Assembly (NCBI RefSeq): GCF_001458395.1
Contig: NZ_CYSR01000040.1
Coordinates: 186,001 to 250,000 of the forward strand
Length of the DNA stretch: 64,000 nucleotides
Source of the DNA: Leisingera aquaemixtae
Lineage (GTDB): Bacteria > Pseudomonadota > Alphaproteobacteria > Rhodobacterales > Rhodobacteraceae
Direction: 5' to 3'
Positions 15,295 through 18,325 of this stretch are shown here, piece after piece. The position numbers and the translations under genes were made by a program. A model generated the notes under the pieces. It worked only from the letters and a program-made list of their open reading frames with translations. It searched no databases and had not been told where the DNA came from. Each line of letters starts with the position of its first letter. The first letter of the stretch is position 1.

Positions 15295-15420
15295 GGCTTG
15301 TCTCCGGCCCAGGTTGCGGTATTTGAAGCCGATCTATCGCTGAATCGGCGCCCCGGGGCAAGCCCGGCGCCTGCAGCGCGAATCACCGGTGCGCCGCCGA
15401 ATCGGCAGGTTTTGCGCCGG

Positions 15421-15654
15421 TGAAAAATAACCCCCAGGTTGATTATACTTATTTTGCAAAATTGAGCGTGTGAATAACGCGGTGAGTAATTTGTGGATTA
15501 ATCGAATTAAATTAAAATTCGCAAAAAATAGCGAGGCGAAGTTAAAGTTGCGGTTTTAAATAAATGCAATGTGGGATTGCATTTTTCGTTTGCGCTGTGC
15601 GCCAGCCGTGCCAGCGTCGAGGAGCCTTTTGTCTCTAACGAATGGGGTTCCAAC
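15421..15654 (+). promoter_or_regulatory. AT-rich control region upstream of the FSSGS-repeat operon
   Basis: The 15295-15654 gap holds no gene. From about 15421 it becomes strikingly AT-rich compared with the rest of the window. It contains a perfect palindrome ATTTTGCAAAAT (15451-15462) and an inverted repeat TTAATCGAATTAA (15498-15510). The second lies between a possible -35 (TTGTGG, 15491-15496) and -10 (TAAAAT, 15513-15518), a good place for an operator. A leader hairpin follows at 15562-15586. No regulator gene is adjacent. The promoter assignment is by eye and weak; the palindromes are certain. Confidence 0.5.
15562..15586 (+). terminator. Leader hairpin, possible attenuator
   Basis: AAATGCAAT (15562-15570), loop GTGGG, ATTGCATTT (15576-15584), then TT. 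The stem is perfect over nine bases with a T-rich tail. It sits about 70 bases before the ATG of the repeat protein, inside its presumed leader. It could attenuate transcription or shape mRNA stability. Confidence 0.45.
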
Positions 15655-16257
15655 ATGACTGCTCAGCGTAAAACCAAGGACATCCGCGCAACCCGTCCGG
15701 CCGCAGGCGCAAGCCTGTTTGCGGGTGATGCGACCGAGATGTTCTCCTCCGGCTCCGCGCCGGAATGTACTGCGGATCTGACGGCAGGGGAGGGTTTGAC
15801 GCTGTTTTCCTCCGGCTCGCTGCCACAGAGGGCCGACCGCTGGGCTGGCGGGGAAACCGGTCTGTTTTCATCCGGCTCGGCGCCCTTGGCCAGCGGCGGA
15901 ACCGCAACCGGCGATCTGGTGGAGATGTTCTCCTCGGGATCGGCACCGGCGGCGCAAAGCGATGCTGCCGCAGGCGATCTGGTTCAGCTGTTCTCCTCGG
16001 GGTCGGCCCCGCAAGCGCAATCAGAAGTTGCCGCGGGCGATCTGACAGAGATGTTTTCTTCCGGCTCCGCCCCGGCGGCGGGTGAAACTGCATCCGGGGA
16101 TCTGACGGAAATGTTCTCCTCCGGCTCTGCGCCCGCGGCAACGGCAGAGGCCGGCGCAGGCGACGGCACGCATCTGTTCTCCTCCGGGTCCGCACCGGCA
16201 CCGAAGGCGCGCACCAGCGCTGGCGATGCGACCCGGCTGTTCTCTTCGGGCAGCTGA
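15655..16257 (+). CDS. FSSGS-repeat protein (nine copies), possible multi-core precursor
   Basis: A 200-aa protein. After a basic 23-residue N-terminus (MTAQRKTKDIRATRP...) come nine repeats of about 20-21 residues with the pattern G-[DE]-x-x-x-[ML]-FSSGS-[AL]-P. The last copy ends exactly at FSSGS-stop. Spacers are Ala-, Ser-, Thr- and Glu-rich and variable; the core is nearly invariant. There is no signal peptide or membrane segment and only one cysteine. Start at 15655 was chosen because the upstream GTG at 15571 lies within the leader hairpin and has no Shine-Dalgarno. The layout (short leader, repeated cores, then an unknown enzyme-sized protein and an exporter) recalls RiPP precursors with multiple cores. 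A repeated docking motif or structural protein is equally possible. I recall DUF6749/DUF6902-type family names in Rhodobacteraceae for such neighbours, unverified. Confidence 0.75.
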   Translation: MTAQRKTKDIRATRPAAGASLFAGDATEMFSSGSAPECTADLTAGEGLTLFSSGSLPQRADRWAGGETGLFSSGSAPLASGGTATGDLVEMFSSGSAPAAQSDAAAGDLVQLFSSGSAPQAQSEVAAGDLTEMFSSGSAPAAGETASGDLTEMFSSGSAPAATAEAGAGDGTHLFSSGSAPAPKARTSAGDATRLFSSGS

Positions 16258-16264
16258 CCGGAAC

Positions 16265-16288
16265 GGGGCCGGTCTCCCTCCCGGCCCC
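16265..16288 (+). terminator. Intercistronic GC hairpin (possible partial terminator)
   Basis: GGGGCCGG (16265-16272) pairs with CCGGCCCC (16281-16288) seven bases after the repeat-protein stop, without a T run. Such a hairpin between the first and second genes can give a high first-gene to downstream-gene ratio, as found in precursor peptide operons. Confidence 0.45.
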
Positions 16289-16352
16289 TGACCAGGAGCG
16301 GCTCCGGTTTCCGGGGCCGCCGCCGCGCCGCACCCATCCGAAAGAGGTTTCC

Positions 16353-17414
16353 ATGGCCCAGATCATCCCGTTTTTCTCTCCTGCCGCCCGCCAGTCCCGG
16401 GCCGATGCGCAAGGGGCGCTGATCGCCGGTTTCGCAGCCCGCCGGCGTAGCCAGGAGGATGTGTTCTGGCTCAAGGAAAATGCGGAGCTGCTGAACATTC
16501 TCGAATGCACCGGAGCGGATGTAAGGGCTGAGGCCCTGGCGCCCCTGCAGCCGTTTTACGAGGGCGCGGCGCGCCACATCAGTTTCTTCCGCCAGTACTA
16601 CCGCTTCATCTTGTCGATCTGCCTGGATCTGGAGGATCTGGGCCTGCCGGGGCAGACCGGGGCGCAGATTGCCCAGTGGGTTTGCGCCCAGGGGCTGCCC
16701 GCGGCGGAGCTGTCCGACCTGCAGCGCGCCGAGGCCCGGCGCCTGCTGGCACGGCGCGGCATCCCCCTCCGGGACGACGGGCTGGACGACCGGCTCCGCA
16801 GCTTTATCTCCCGCCCGCAGACCTTCGCCATTCCCAACAAAAAGGCCGCCTACGAGCTGACCCACATCGTGTTTTATCTGTCCGAGTACGGGCGCCGGGA
16901 TCCGGGGCTGCCAGCGGCTGCCGTGACCAGCCTCGAATTCGCGGGTCTGGTAGCCTTTCTCGACCAGAATGCCGACCTGCTGGCGGAGATCTGCATTGCC
17001 ATGCGCTATGCCGGACAGCAGCCGCCGGCCGCGTGGGAGGCTTGGCTCGACAGGCAGGTTTCCGCCTATATGCTCGCTAAAGATGAATTTTGTGGACTTC
17101 ATGATGCGTATCACGAGTATTTTGTGACCAACTGGCTCATGCTGCTGTCCGGCCGTCCGGCCTTCCGGCAGCCGGTCCCCCTGGGGGCGGTGCATGTGTC
17201 GGCGCAGCAGGGAGGGAGCATTTTGAGGAGCCTGTCTGAAGCCGTGTTTGATGCCGGAACGGCGCGGGCCAGCTGGAGCGCGGTGAAAGCGCGCGCCGAG
17301 GCGGTGCTGAGCGAGGAGCAGCACCGGATCCTGACCGCGGCAGAACGCAGCTGCGCCGGGTTTGCCGGATTTTTCGAAGGGTTTGCCCGCGCGGGCAGCG
17401 CAGGGGCGGCGTGA
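16353..17414 (+). CDS. Uncharacterised 353-aa helical protein, partner of the repeat protein
   Basis: The start ATG has AGAGG six bases upstream. The protein opens with MAQIIPFFSPAARQ and is predicted mostly helical by eye. Distinctive histidine-bearing segments are AAYELTHIVFYLSEYGRRDP (around residue 165-185) and FCGLHDAYHEYFVTNWLML (around 250-268), which could form a metal or substrate site. I do not recognise a named enzyme family; the ELTHIVFYL segment resembles Rhodobacterales DUF6902-like proteins, from memory only. The stop overlaps the transporter start (TGATG), showing translational coupling. Codons near 17080-17125 are unusually AT-rich for this genome. A modifying enzyme or chaperone acting on the FSSGS repeats is an inference from context. 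Confidence 0.75.
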   Translation: MAQIIPFFSPAARQSRADAQGALIAGFAARRRSQEDVFWLKENAELLNILECTGADVRAEALAPLQPFYEGAARHISFFRQYYRFILSICLDLEDLGLPGQTGAQIAQWVCAQGLPAAELSDLQRAEARRLLARRGIPLRDDGLDDRLRSFISRPQTFAIPNKKAAYELTHIVFYLSEYGRRDPGLPAAAVTSLEFAGLVAFLDQNADLLAEICIAMRYAGQQPPAAWEAWLDRQVSAYMLAKDEFCGLHDAYHEYFVTNWLMLLSGRPAFRQPVPLGAVHVSAQQGGSILRSLSEAVFDAGTARASWSAVKARAEAVLSEEQHRILTAAERSCAGFAGFFEGFARAGSAGAA

Positions 17415-18325
17415 TGCGCTGTTCCCGCAACCAGGCGCTGGCCGGGGCGCTGCTGGTGGTTGCCTACACAGGGCTGATTGCCTCTGCCGACGGGATCACC
17501 AAGCTGCTTGCGGGTCAGTACGCCGCGGCCCAGCTCTATGCGCTGTCGGGTGCCATGGTTGCAGGCTTCTGCCTGCTGGCGGACCGGCTGCCGGCCGTGC
17601 GCGGCGGTTTCCGCACCAAGTGCCCGCGGGCGATGGCGCTGCGCTCCGGCGCGACACTGGTTGCGGCGGTGTGCTTTTTCTATGCCTTCCGGCTGCTGCC
17701 CTTTGCTGAGGTGTTTGTGTTCATCGGGCTGATGCCGCTGCTGGCGGGCGCCATGTCCGGGCTGGTGCTGAAGGAGCCGGTGCGCCCGGCTGCCTGGGCG
17801 GCGCTTGGCGCTGGATTTGCGGGGGTGCTGTTCCTGTTTCCGGGCGGGGTCGCCTCCGCCACGCCGGGCCATCTCGTGGCTTTTGCCGCGGCGGTTTCCG
17901 GCACATTTTCCATGACACTGGCGCGGTTTATCGGCCGCTATGAAAGCAATTCGCTGGCCCAGGTCTTTTATCCCAACCTGACCCTTTGCCTGGTTATGCT
18001 GGTGCTGCTGCCCTTTGTCTGGGTCCCGATGCCGCTGGCGGATGCGGGCTGGGCCGCGGCCTATGCCTTCCTGCTGTTCGGGGCGCGCTGGCTTCTGGTG
18101 GTGGCGCTGCGGCTCCTGGCCTCCTACGCCGTCACCCCGCTGATGAATTTGCAGTTCATCTGGATGGCGGTGATCGGCGCGGTGTTCTTTGGGGAGTTTC
18201 CGCCCGCTGCCACCTATTTCGGCGGCGCCATCGTCATTGCCTCTGGCCTTTATCTGGTCTGGGACCAGTTCGCCCCGGCGATGCCGAGGCTGCGCAATCC
18301 GGGACGGCTGCAAACCGATCCGTGA
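17411..18325 (+). CDS. DMT-superfamily (EamA) transporter
   Basis: About 300 aa with ten hydrophobic segments arranged as two EamA repeats: the first spans roughly residues 8-135, the second about 150-285. Motifs such as FAEVFVFIGLMPLLAGAMSG and NLQFIWMAVIGAVFFGEFPP are typical of drug/metabolite exporters of the inner membrane. The start may be GTG at 17411 or ATG at 17414; either way it overlaps the previous stop, so the gene is coupled to the 353-aa protein. The coupling suggests that it exports, or protects against, a product of that operon. The substrate is unknown. A double hairpin follows it. Confidence 0.85.
   Translation: MMRCSRNQALAGALLVVAYTGLIASADGITKLLAGQYAAAQLYALSGAMVAGFCLLADRLPAVRGGFRTKCPRAMALRSGATLVAAVCFFYAFRLLPFAEVFVFIGLMPLLAGAMSGLVLKEPVRPAAWAALGAGFAGVLFLFPGGVASATPGHLVAFAAAVSGTFSMTLARFIGRYESNSLAQVFYPNLTLCLVMLVLLPFVWVPMPLADAGWAAAYAFLLFGARWLLVVALRLLASYAVTPLMNLQFIWMAVIGAVFFGEFPPAATYFGGAIVIASGLYLVWDQFAPAMPRLRNPGRLQTDP

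Follow-up and report, generated by a model that had tools for sequence, protein, structure and literature searches.

The cyanobactin precursor PatE and the fungal dikaritins carry multiple cores between constant recognition stretches, with cores that vary between strains, and the yeast alpha-factor is a multicopy peptide pheromone precursor whose copies are identical within a gene and change between lineages. MslH, which acts in the biosynthesis of the lasso peptide MS-271, has a calcineurin-like metallophosphatase fold. This enzyme is described as an epimerase that inverts the C-alpha centre of the C-terminal Trp in MslA, and the title of that report refers to metal-dependent acid/base catalysis (PMC10406935). 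One member of the DUF6895 family is named a lasso-peptide epimerase in the title of a paper (Shi et al., ACS Catal 2026) that appears in the reference list of PMC13352647. Here, we analyzed a 64,000-nucleotide stretch of the Leisingera aquaemixtae genome (contig NZ_CYSR01000040.1, positions 186,001 to 250,000; hereafter, the window), in which three genes at 15655–18325 on the plus strand form one operon encoding a repeat protein, a DUF6902 protein, and an EamA/DMT-family transporter. The system, carried by marine bacteria of the Roseobacter group, seems to be a family of modified ribosomal peptides not described before, and with somewhat better than even confidence we interpreted the locus as a multi-core system of the type of ribosomally synthesized and post-translationally modified peptides (RiPPs), with DUF6902 as the predicted core-modifying enzyme. 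This was the best reading because the repeat protein and the enzyme co-occur, the enzyme is homologous to a peptide-modifying family, and the core is constant within a gene and replaced between genera.

Compared with the systems above, the window precursor is like PatE and the dikaritins in that several cores are separated by constant stretches, but no YcaO, PatA/PatG-type protease, or DUF3328 protein was found among the window proteins scanned, and the enzyme family is a different one. It shares with the alpha-factor the identical, lineage-specific product copies within each gene; in contrast, it is bacterial, its leader has no visible secretion signal, and it has an enzyme partner. The family of the DUF6895 lasso epimerase, known here by the title of that paper, is homologous to DUF6902 and has the same conserved residues, whereas the precursor described here is multi-core and DUF6902 is a Pfam family of its own. 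The likeness to MslH, compared by description, would lie in C-alpha inversion on a ribosomal precursor, which is the role proposed below for DUF6902. The B protein (protease/RiPP recognition element) and the C protein (cyclase), which would be expected near a lasso peptide precursor, were not found among the eight flanking proteins scanned.

The first gene (15655–16257) encodes a protein of 200 amino acids (aa) that we regard as a multi-core precursor from its sequence and from profile matches limited to DUF6902 genomes. By sequence comparison, its N-terminal 23 residues (15655–15723) form a short leader that is basic (MTAQRKTKDIRATRP), as the first-pass annotation of this DNA had described it, and free of any hydrophobic stretch. 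The leader is followed by an array of nine units (15724–16254) with the frame G-[DE]-x4-F, an invariant SSGS, and variable spacers. The same annotation had reported a soluble protein with nine FSSGS repeats, which proved correct with two qualifications: eight of the nine units match G-[DE]-x4-FSSGS and the third reads GGETGL-FSSGS, and [AL]P follows eight of the nine, the ninth FSSGS being the C-terminal end of the protein. The nine cores show many synonymous codon differences and no amino-acid difference; thus, the constancy of the core reflects conservation at the protein level, and recent DNA duplication or chance was ruled out as the source of the repeats. The second gene (16353–17414) encodes the 353-aa DUF6902 protein, which is predicted to be an epimerase-like, core-modifying relative of DUF6895, and the third (17414–18325) encodes the transporter, a protein of 303 aa assigned by Pfam. 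The two genes overlap at TGATG (17412–17416), again as annotated, with the enzyme stop codon TGA at 17412–17414 and the transporter ATG at 17414–17416. The genome contains a single DUF6902 gene and a single precursor, a second precursor match reaching only E = 0.7.

The repeat protein was strictly associated with the enzyme. All 21 genomes of the genus, including that of the window, have DUF6902, and a sample of 394 genomes from the host family contains 108 that have it. A precursor profile built from 16 precursors matched 100 of these 394 genomes, all of them inside the 108 with DUF6902, and none of the 286 sampled family genomes without it (Fisher p = 9e-85, relatedness ignored; that both profile searches covered the same 394 genomes was concluded from the genomes listed). 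In all 100 profile-positive genomes, one match immediately precedes DUF6902, sharing its contig and strand, as determined by comparing the two match tables by eye; four genomes (G071, G097, G293, and G372) have an extra match on another contig, and eight DUF6902 genomes (G083, G085, G143, G183, G307, G326, G331, and G404) gave no profile match. We then read 106 family loci, that is, the DUF6902 loci minus G413 and G183, and 104 of them have a same-strand upstream precursor with at least two cores. This number comprises 96 from a 4-mer test, which selected the upstream open reading frame (ORF) by repetition and is biased accordingly, after removal of two false picks (L106 and L117, the precursor of the latter being later recognized by eye), and eight found by eye. 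The gap between precursor and enzyme is mostly within about 150 nt, with a few larger ones (552 nt in L120). Among 80 named loci, the best 80 of 378 relatives, 79 have the array; the exception, L188, is the contig of L059, whose array continues into unresolved sequence (N). Copy number is nine in the window, 4–10 across the 21 genus genomes, and 2–20 among relatives, the upper value in the family set being that of L027, a long array of near-identical units. Of the checks put forward in the first-pass annotation, co-occurrence with the 353-aa gene and variation in repeat number were thus borne out. The start M[TNSA][AV][LQ] is shared by 28 of 34 listed precursors, a figure to be read with the fact that start codons were picked partly by this motif itself.

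The core is constant within each gene and changes between genera. In a frame-only control, units were picked by G-[DE]-xxxx-[FY], blind to the core, from 86 precursors (556 units). The four residues after the frame showed an identity of 0.98–0.99 within precursors and 0.34–0.75 between precursor consensuses, and the synonymous share of codon differences was 96–98% in the core, 32–51% in the five positions after G, and 23–28% in the spacer. A count by core similarity (95 precursors, 713 units), which required at least three of five places to match the consensus core and therefore inflates core identity, gave 0.94–0.99 within and 0.32–0.68 between, with 89–98% synonymous differences; it left out the eight loci with fewer than three copies as well as L101, L106, and L117. 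Of the 95 consensus cores in this count, seven are misregistered. The frame-only control, free of the core-match bias, agrees with it. Because core codons differ synonymously and the unit is recognizable across species of the genus, the identity is kept by protein-level selection.

Among 104 precursors, 46 distinct cores were observed, among them FSSGS (22) and FTSWS (14) as well as FTSGS, FSSGA, FTSGL, FVSWS, FSTSC, FTNWC, MMCCS, and YIAGL; 17 of the core labels were set by hand, namely eight of the 95 automatic ones (seven truly changed) and nine added loci (L059, L098, L101, L107, L109, L116, L117, L123, and L124). Thus, FSSGS, which had been taken for the invariant heart of the system, is not its conserved element, since the whole core is replaced in other genera. 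At core position 3, 88 of the 95 consensuses have Ser or Thr (the seven misregistered ones are included in the 95). Within the genus the core is fixed, with 176 FSSGS and 10 YSSGS units over the 21 genomes, and a GGETG-type unit is retained in 18 of them. Many arrays in the named loci terminate right behind the core or after core-GP followed by two or three further residues, a hint of where the C-terminal boundary of the product lies. Identity within genes together with change between genera would make the product boundary readable from sequence. Two core types were seen side by side in the precursors L195, L206, L079, L053, and L167. Two of these, L053 and L079, mix two cores by the strict count in the family set, Ruegeria pomeroyi (L195) has FSTSC units amid FSSGS units, and FTSGS alternates with FTTSA in L167. 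Such two-core precursors look like stages of core switching.

The 353-aa protein matches DUF6902 (PF21843) over positions 1–351 (E = 2.3e-145; 484 bits against a cut-off of 27) and is 82–88% identical to DUF6902 of the nearest named Leisingera relatives. It also matches DUF6895 (PF21836; E = 8.4e-25; 88.2 bits against a cut-off of 23.8) over profile positions 17–238 of 289, and the DUF6895 profile is matched by every one of the 46 diverse proteins in a DUF6902 alignment. When these 46 proteins were compared by hhalign with ten DUF6895 proteins, all above the Pfam cut-off, the probability was 97.5% (E = 4.9e-12) over 184 columns with 18% identity. Residues Y167, T170-H171, F174, G180, D208, E212, and Y253-H254 (window numbering) are invariant or nearly so in both families, giving the common motifs Y..TH..F, [DE]xG, D...E, and YH; the invariant Y, H, F, G, D, E, and YH residues of the ten DUF6895 proteins are present in DUF6902, and Glu178 of DUF6902 is the counterpart of DUF6895 Asp217. 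Since residues conserved in one family are also conserved in the other, a shared chemistry is favored. We infer that the His, Asp, Glu, and Tyr-His residues form a catalytic site, and we judged epimerization to have about an even chance of being the DUF6902 chemistry, core position 3 or the Phe being the likeliest site of change. The first-pass annotation had regarded the protein as unknown and as a possible new modifying enzyme; the second suggestion gained from the homology to the reported epimerase family, and the first fell because the protein already belongs to a Pfam family. A viral-contig scan with the 353-aa protein gave 16 pattern matches, of which none was confirmed, a plasmid search gave no match, and PADLOC models for anti-phage defence matched none of the three operon proteins.

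To place the enzyme in its wider family, we read nine DUF6895 loci outside the host family, in Pseudomonadota, Actinomycetota, and Bacillota, with genes above the Pfam cut-off. A small precursor-like ORF lies directly upstream in seven of the nine (L147, L148, L149, L152, L236, L237, and L238). The hosts of the loci are Pseudomonadota (G539, G614, G772, and G039), Kitasatospora, Streptomyces, and Pseudalkalibacillus. The leaders of these seven ORFs have the pattern [SA]G[ILA][ILV][DN]... with a hydrophobic pair a few positions later, and their cores are rich in W, Y, F, V, and L (GYVLAWDKYVLVV, GPWFVL, WTFVSPNYVYK, WAFIVKGKFVFK, and EWELATKHFLL). Pairwise similarity of the leaders ranges from clear to weak, with E-values computed against nine sequences only. 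A match below the DUF6895 cut-off, in G522 (L153), had no clear precursor. These observations fit a superfamily, DUF6902/DUF6895, of putative peptide-modifying enzymes with precursors encoded upstream. The seven upstream ORFs may themselves be an undescribed precursor family across three phyla. Two of the loci had further features: in L147 (4266–9885), the DUF6895 gene is accompanied by genes for an MFS transporter, an O-methyltransferase, and a C39/C70-like papain-fold peptidase, and this peptidase may carry out the kind of processing for which no protease was seen in the Roseobacter loci; L239 (2451–7688, on plasmid p1 of Streptomyces fungicidicus) has tandem DUF6895 genes behind a 62-aa ORF, together with cytochrome P450 and serine hydrolase genes, and is a candidate peptide cluster.

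The locus thus encodes a precursor beside a predicted modifying enzyme, as in RiPP systems, the role of the enzyme being assigned by homology. We propose that gene 1 yields a precursor in which a short leader precedes several units. Within each of them, the frame G-[DE]-xxxx-F would position the enzyme, and the four residues behind the frame (SSGS here) would be the part held constant within the gene. Each unit would then be a substrate of DUF6902, whose most likely reaction is the inversion (L to D) of a C-alpha centre in or next to either core residue 3, which is mostly Ser or Thr, or the Phe; the conserved His/Asp/Glu/Tyr-His set would serve as an acid-base or metal site. The units would be separated by a protease whose gene lies elsewhere, and the EamA protein, where present, would export the short peptides. 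The product would probably be a lineage-specific signal or antagonist, a function that we guess from the private-code pattern of the cores.

Several observations weigh against this interpretation. Its link to epimerization is the single paper title cited above, a PDB sequence search with the 353-aa protein returned no solved relative (one chance match, E = 1), and modification and cleavage of the units are steps that we infer. The at least 64 core changes required on a quick DUF6902 tree are counted on a weak topology, in which 54 of 103 inner branches are open. Two DUF6902 genes of the 106 loci, in L106 and in L125, where the enzyme is very divergent (129 bits), have no visible upstream precursor, and the same holds for a DUF6895-like ORF of 228 aa (L150, 5902–6585; 38.9 bits) in G285, a family genome outside the 108; G784 (L151), checked in the same way, has the usual precursor, enzyme, and transporter. 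Some of the DUF6895 leader similarities are weak, and two of the nine DUF6895 loci lack a related leader, L239 having a different small ORF before its tandem pair and L240 no assignable upstream small ORF. EamA proteins are exporters of small metabolites, and an EamA gene, which follows the enzyme gene in 79 of the 104 family loci that could be assessed and in 70 of the 80 named loci, is missing from the other 25 of the 104. The transporter is therefore an optional part of the system, which contradicts its earlier description as a dedicated exporter and touches the condition under which the first-pass annotation would have given up the RiPP idea, wide occurrence of the repeat protein without its exporter. 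The Pfam scan of the eight flanking proteins detected no protease or known RiPP enzyme and no RiPP recognition element, for which no aimed search was made. Finally, the locus has a stable chromosomal place, unlike mobile biosynthetic clusters. The multi-core RiPP idea thus drew support from co-occurrence and from homology to a reported RiPP epimerase family, and lost the exporter and the hairpin (see below) from its original arguments.

We considered whether DUF6902 may modify the units by another chemistry, such as dehydration, cyclization, or hydrolysis at Ser, Thr, or Cys. The preference for Ser or Thr at core residue 3 would suit such a reaction, as would the partial nature of the DUF6902–DUF6895 alignment, but the two families have their conserved residues in common, which favors shared chemistry, and we hold this alternative to be possible rather than probable. 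A further explanation, which we consider unlikely, is that the units bind DUF6902 unchanged, the repeat protein serving the enzyme as a multivalent scaffold or inhibitor and its core co-evolving with the binding pocket. Strict co-occurrence and the kept frame suit binding as well as modification, and the scan of the flanking proteins showed no protease; however, change between genera combined with identity within genes would sooner be expected of a product than of a docking motif, and the homologous DUF6895 family includes an enzyme reported, by a title in the reference list of PMC13352647, to modify peptides. We found still less reason, and give very little weight, to regard the gene product as a repeat protein with a structural or stress role that gives rise to no peptide, its units having been homogenized through tandem duplication and gene conversion. 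Variation in repeat number and some near-identical long arrays, such as that of L027, are what such a protein would show, but the nearly exclusive synonymy of core codon differences relative to the spacer, the retention of the GGETG-type unit in most genus genomes and its recognizability across species, and the lack of any profile match without DUF6902 in the sample argue against it.

The intergenic stretch between genes 1 and 2 (16258–16352) contains two GC-rich hairpins. A hairpin between these genes had been suggested to favor expression of the first; it can fold, with an energy ordinary for its base composition (z = -0.36; 68 of 200 shuffles equal or better), and it was rejected as evidence, the lowest z-score among 14 folded stretches being -1.80. 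The promoter/terminator scan revealed no terminator-like site between these genes and two sigma-70-like sites (0.4 expected), one upstream of the operon (15420–15449) and one inside gene 2 (17047–17074). The operon is flanked by an exonuclease III-like gene and an Fe-S assembly gene, both on the opposite strand, with an FAD-dependent oxidoreductase gene beyond the former and an HD-domain phosphohydrolase gene beyond the latter; besides these four, the eight flanking proteins comprise an AAA ATPase, DksA, a GFA-type protein, and one without Pfam match. Among 65 long loci, xthA is present in 64 and erpA in 59 (gene order not scored).

In the open-licence literature of PubMed Central (PMC), DUF6902, PF21843, and the core strings FSSGSAP, FTSWSGP, and FTSGSAP are unmentioned, DUF6895 appears in only one reference list, and nothing on this system was found among the papers listed for RiPP epimerases or roseobacter RiPPs. 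If our interpretation is true, the locus would represent an undescribed class of modified ribosomal peptides with a stable chromosomal place, present in about one quarter of the sampled genomes (108/394) of a major marine bacterial family. It would provide a function for two DUF families and a candidate signal other than N-acyl homoserine lactones in the Roseobacter group, and an enzyme family with dozens of cores among its natural substrates would be useful for peptide engineering. Much more tentatively, and with doubt, we suggest that it may be a chromosomal system of signalling or rival recognition, in which each Roseobacter lineage releases numerous copies of a private DUF6902-modified tetra- or pentapeptide with a D-residue, the enzyme tracks the changing cores, and DUF6902/DUF6895 constitute a cross-phylum superfamily of peptide epimerases.

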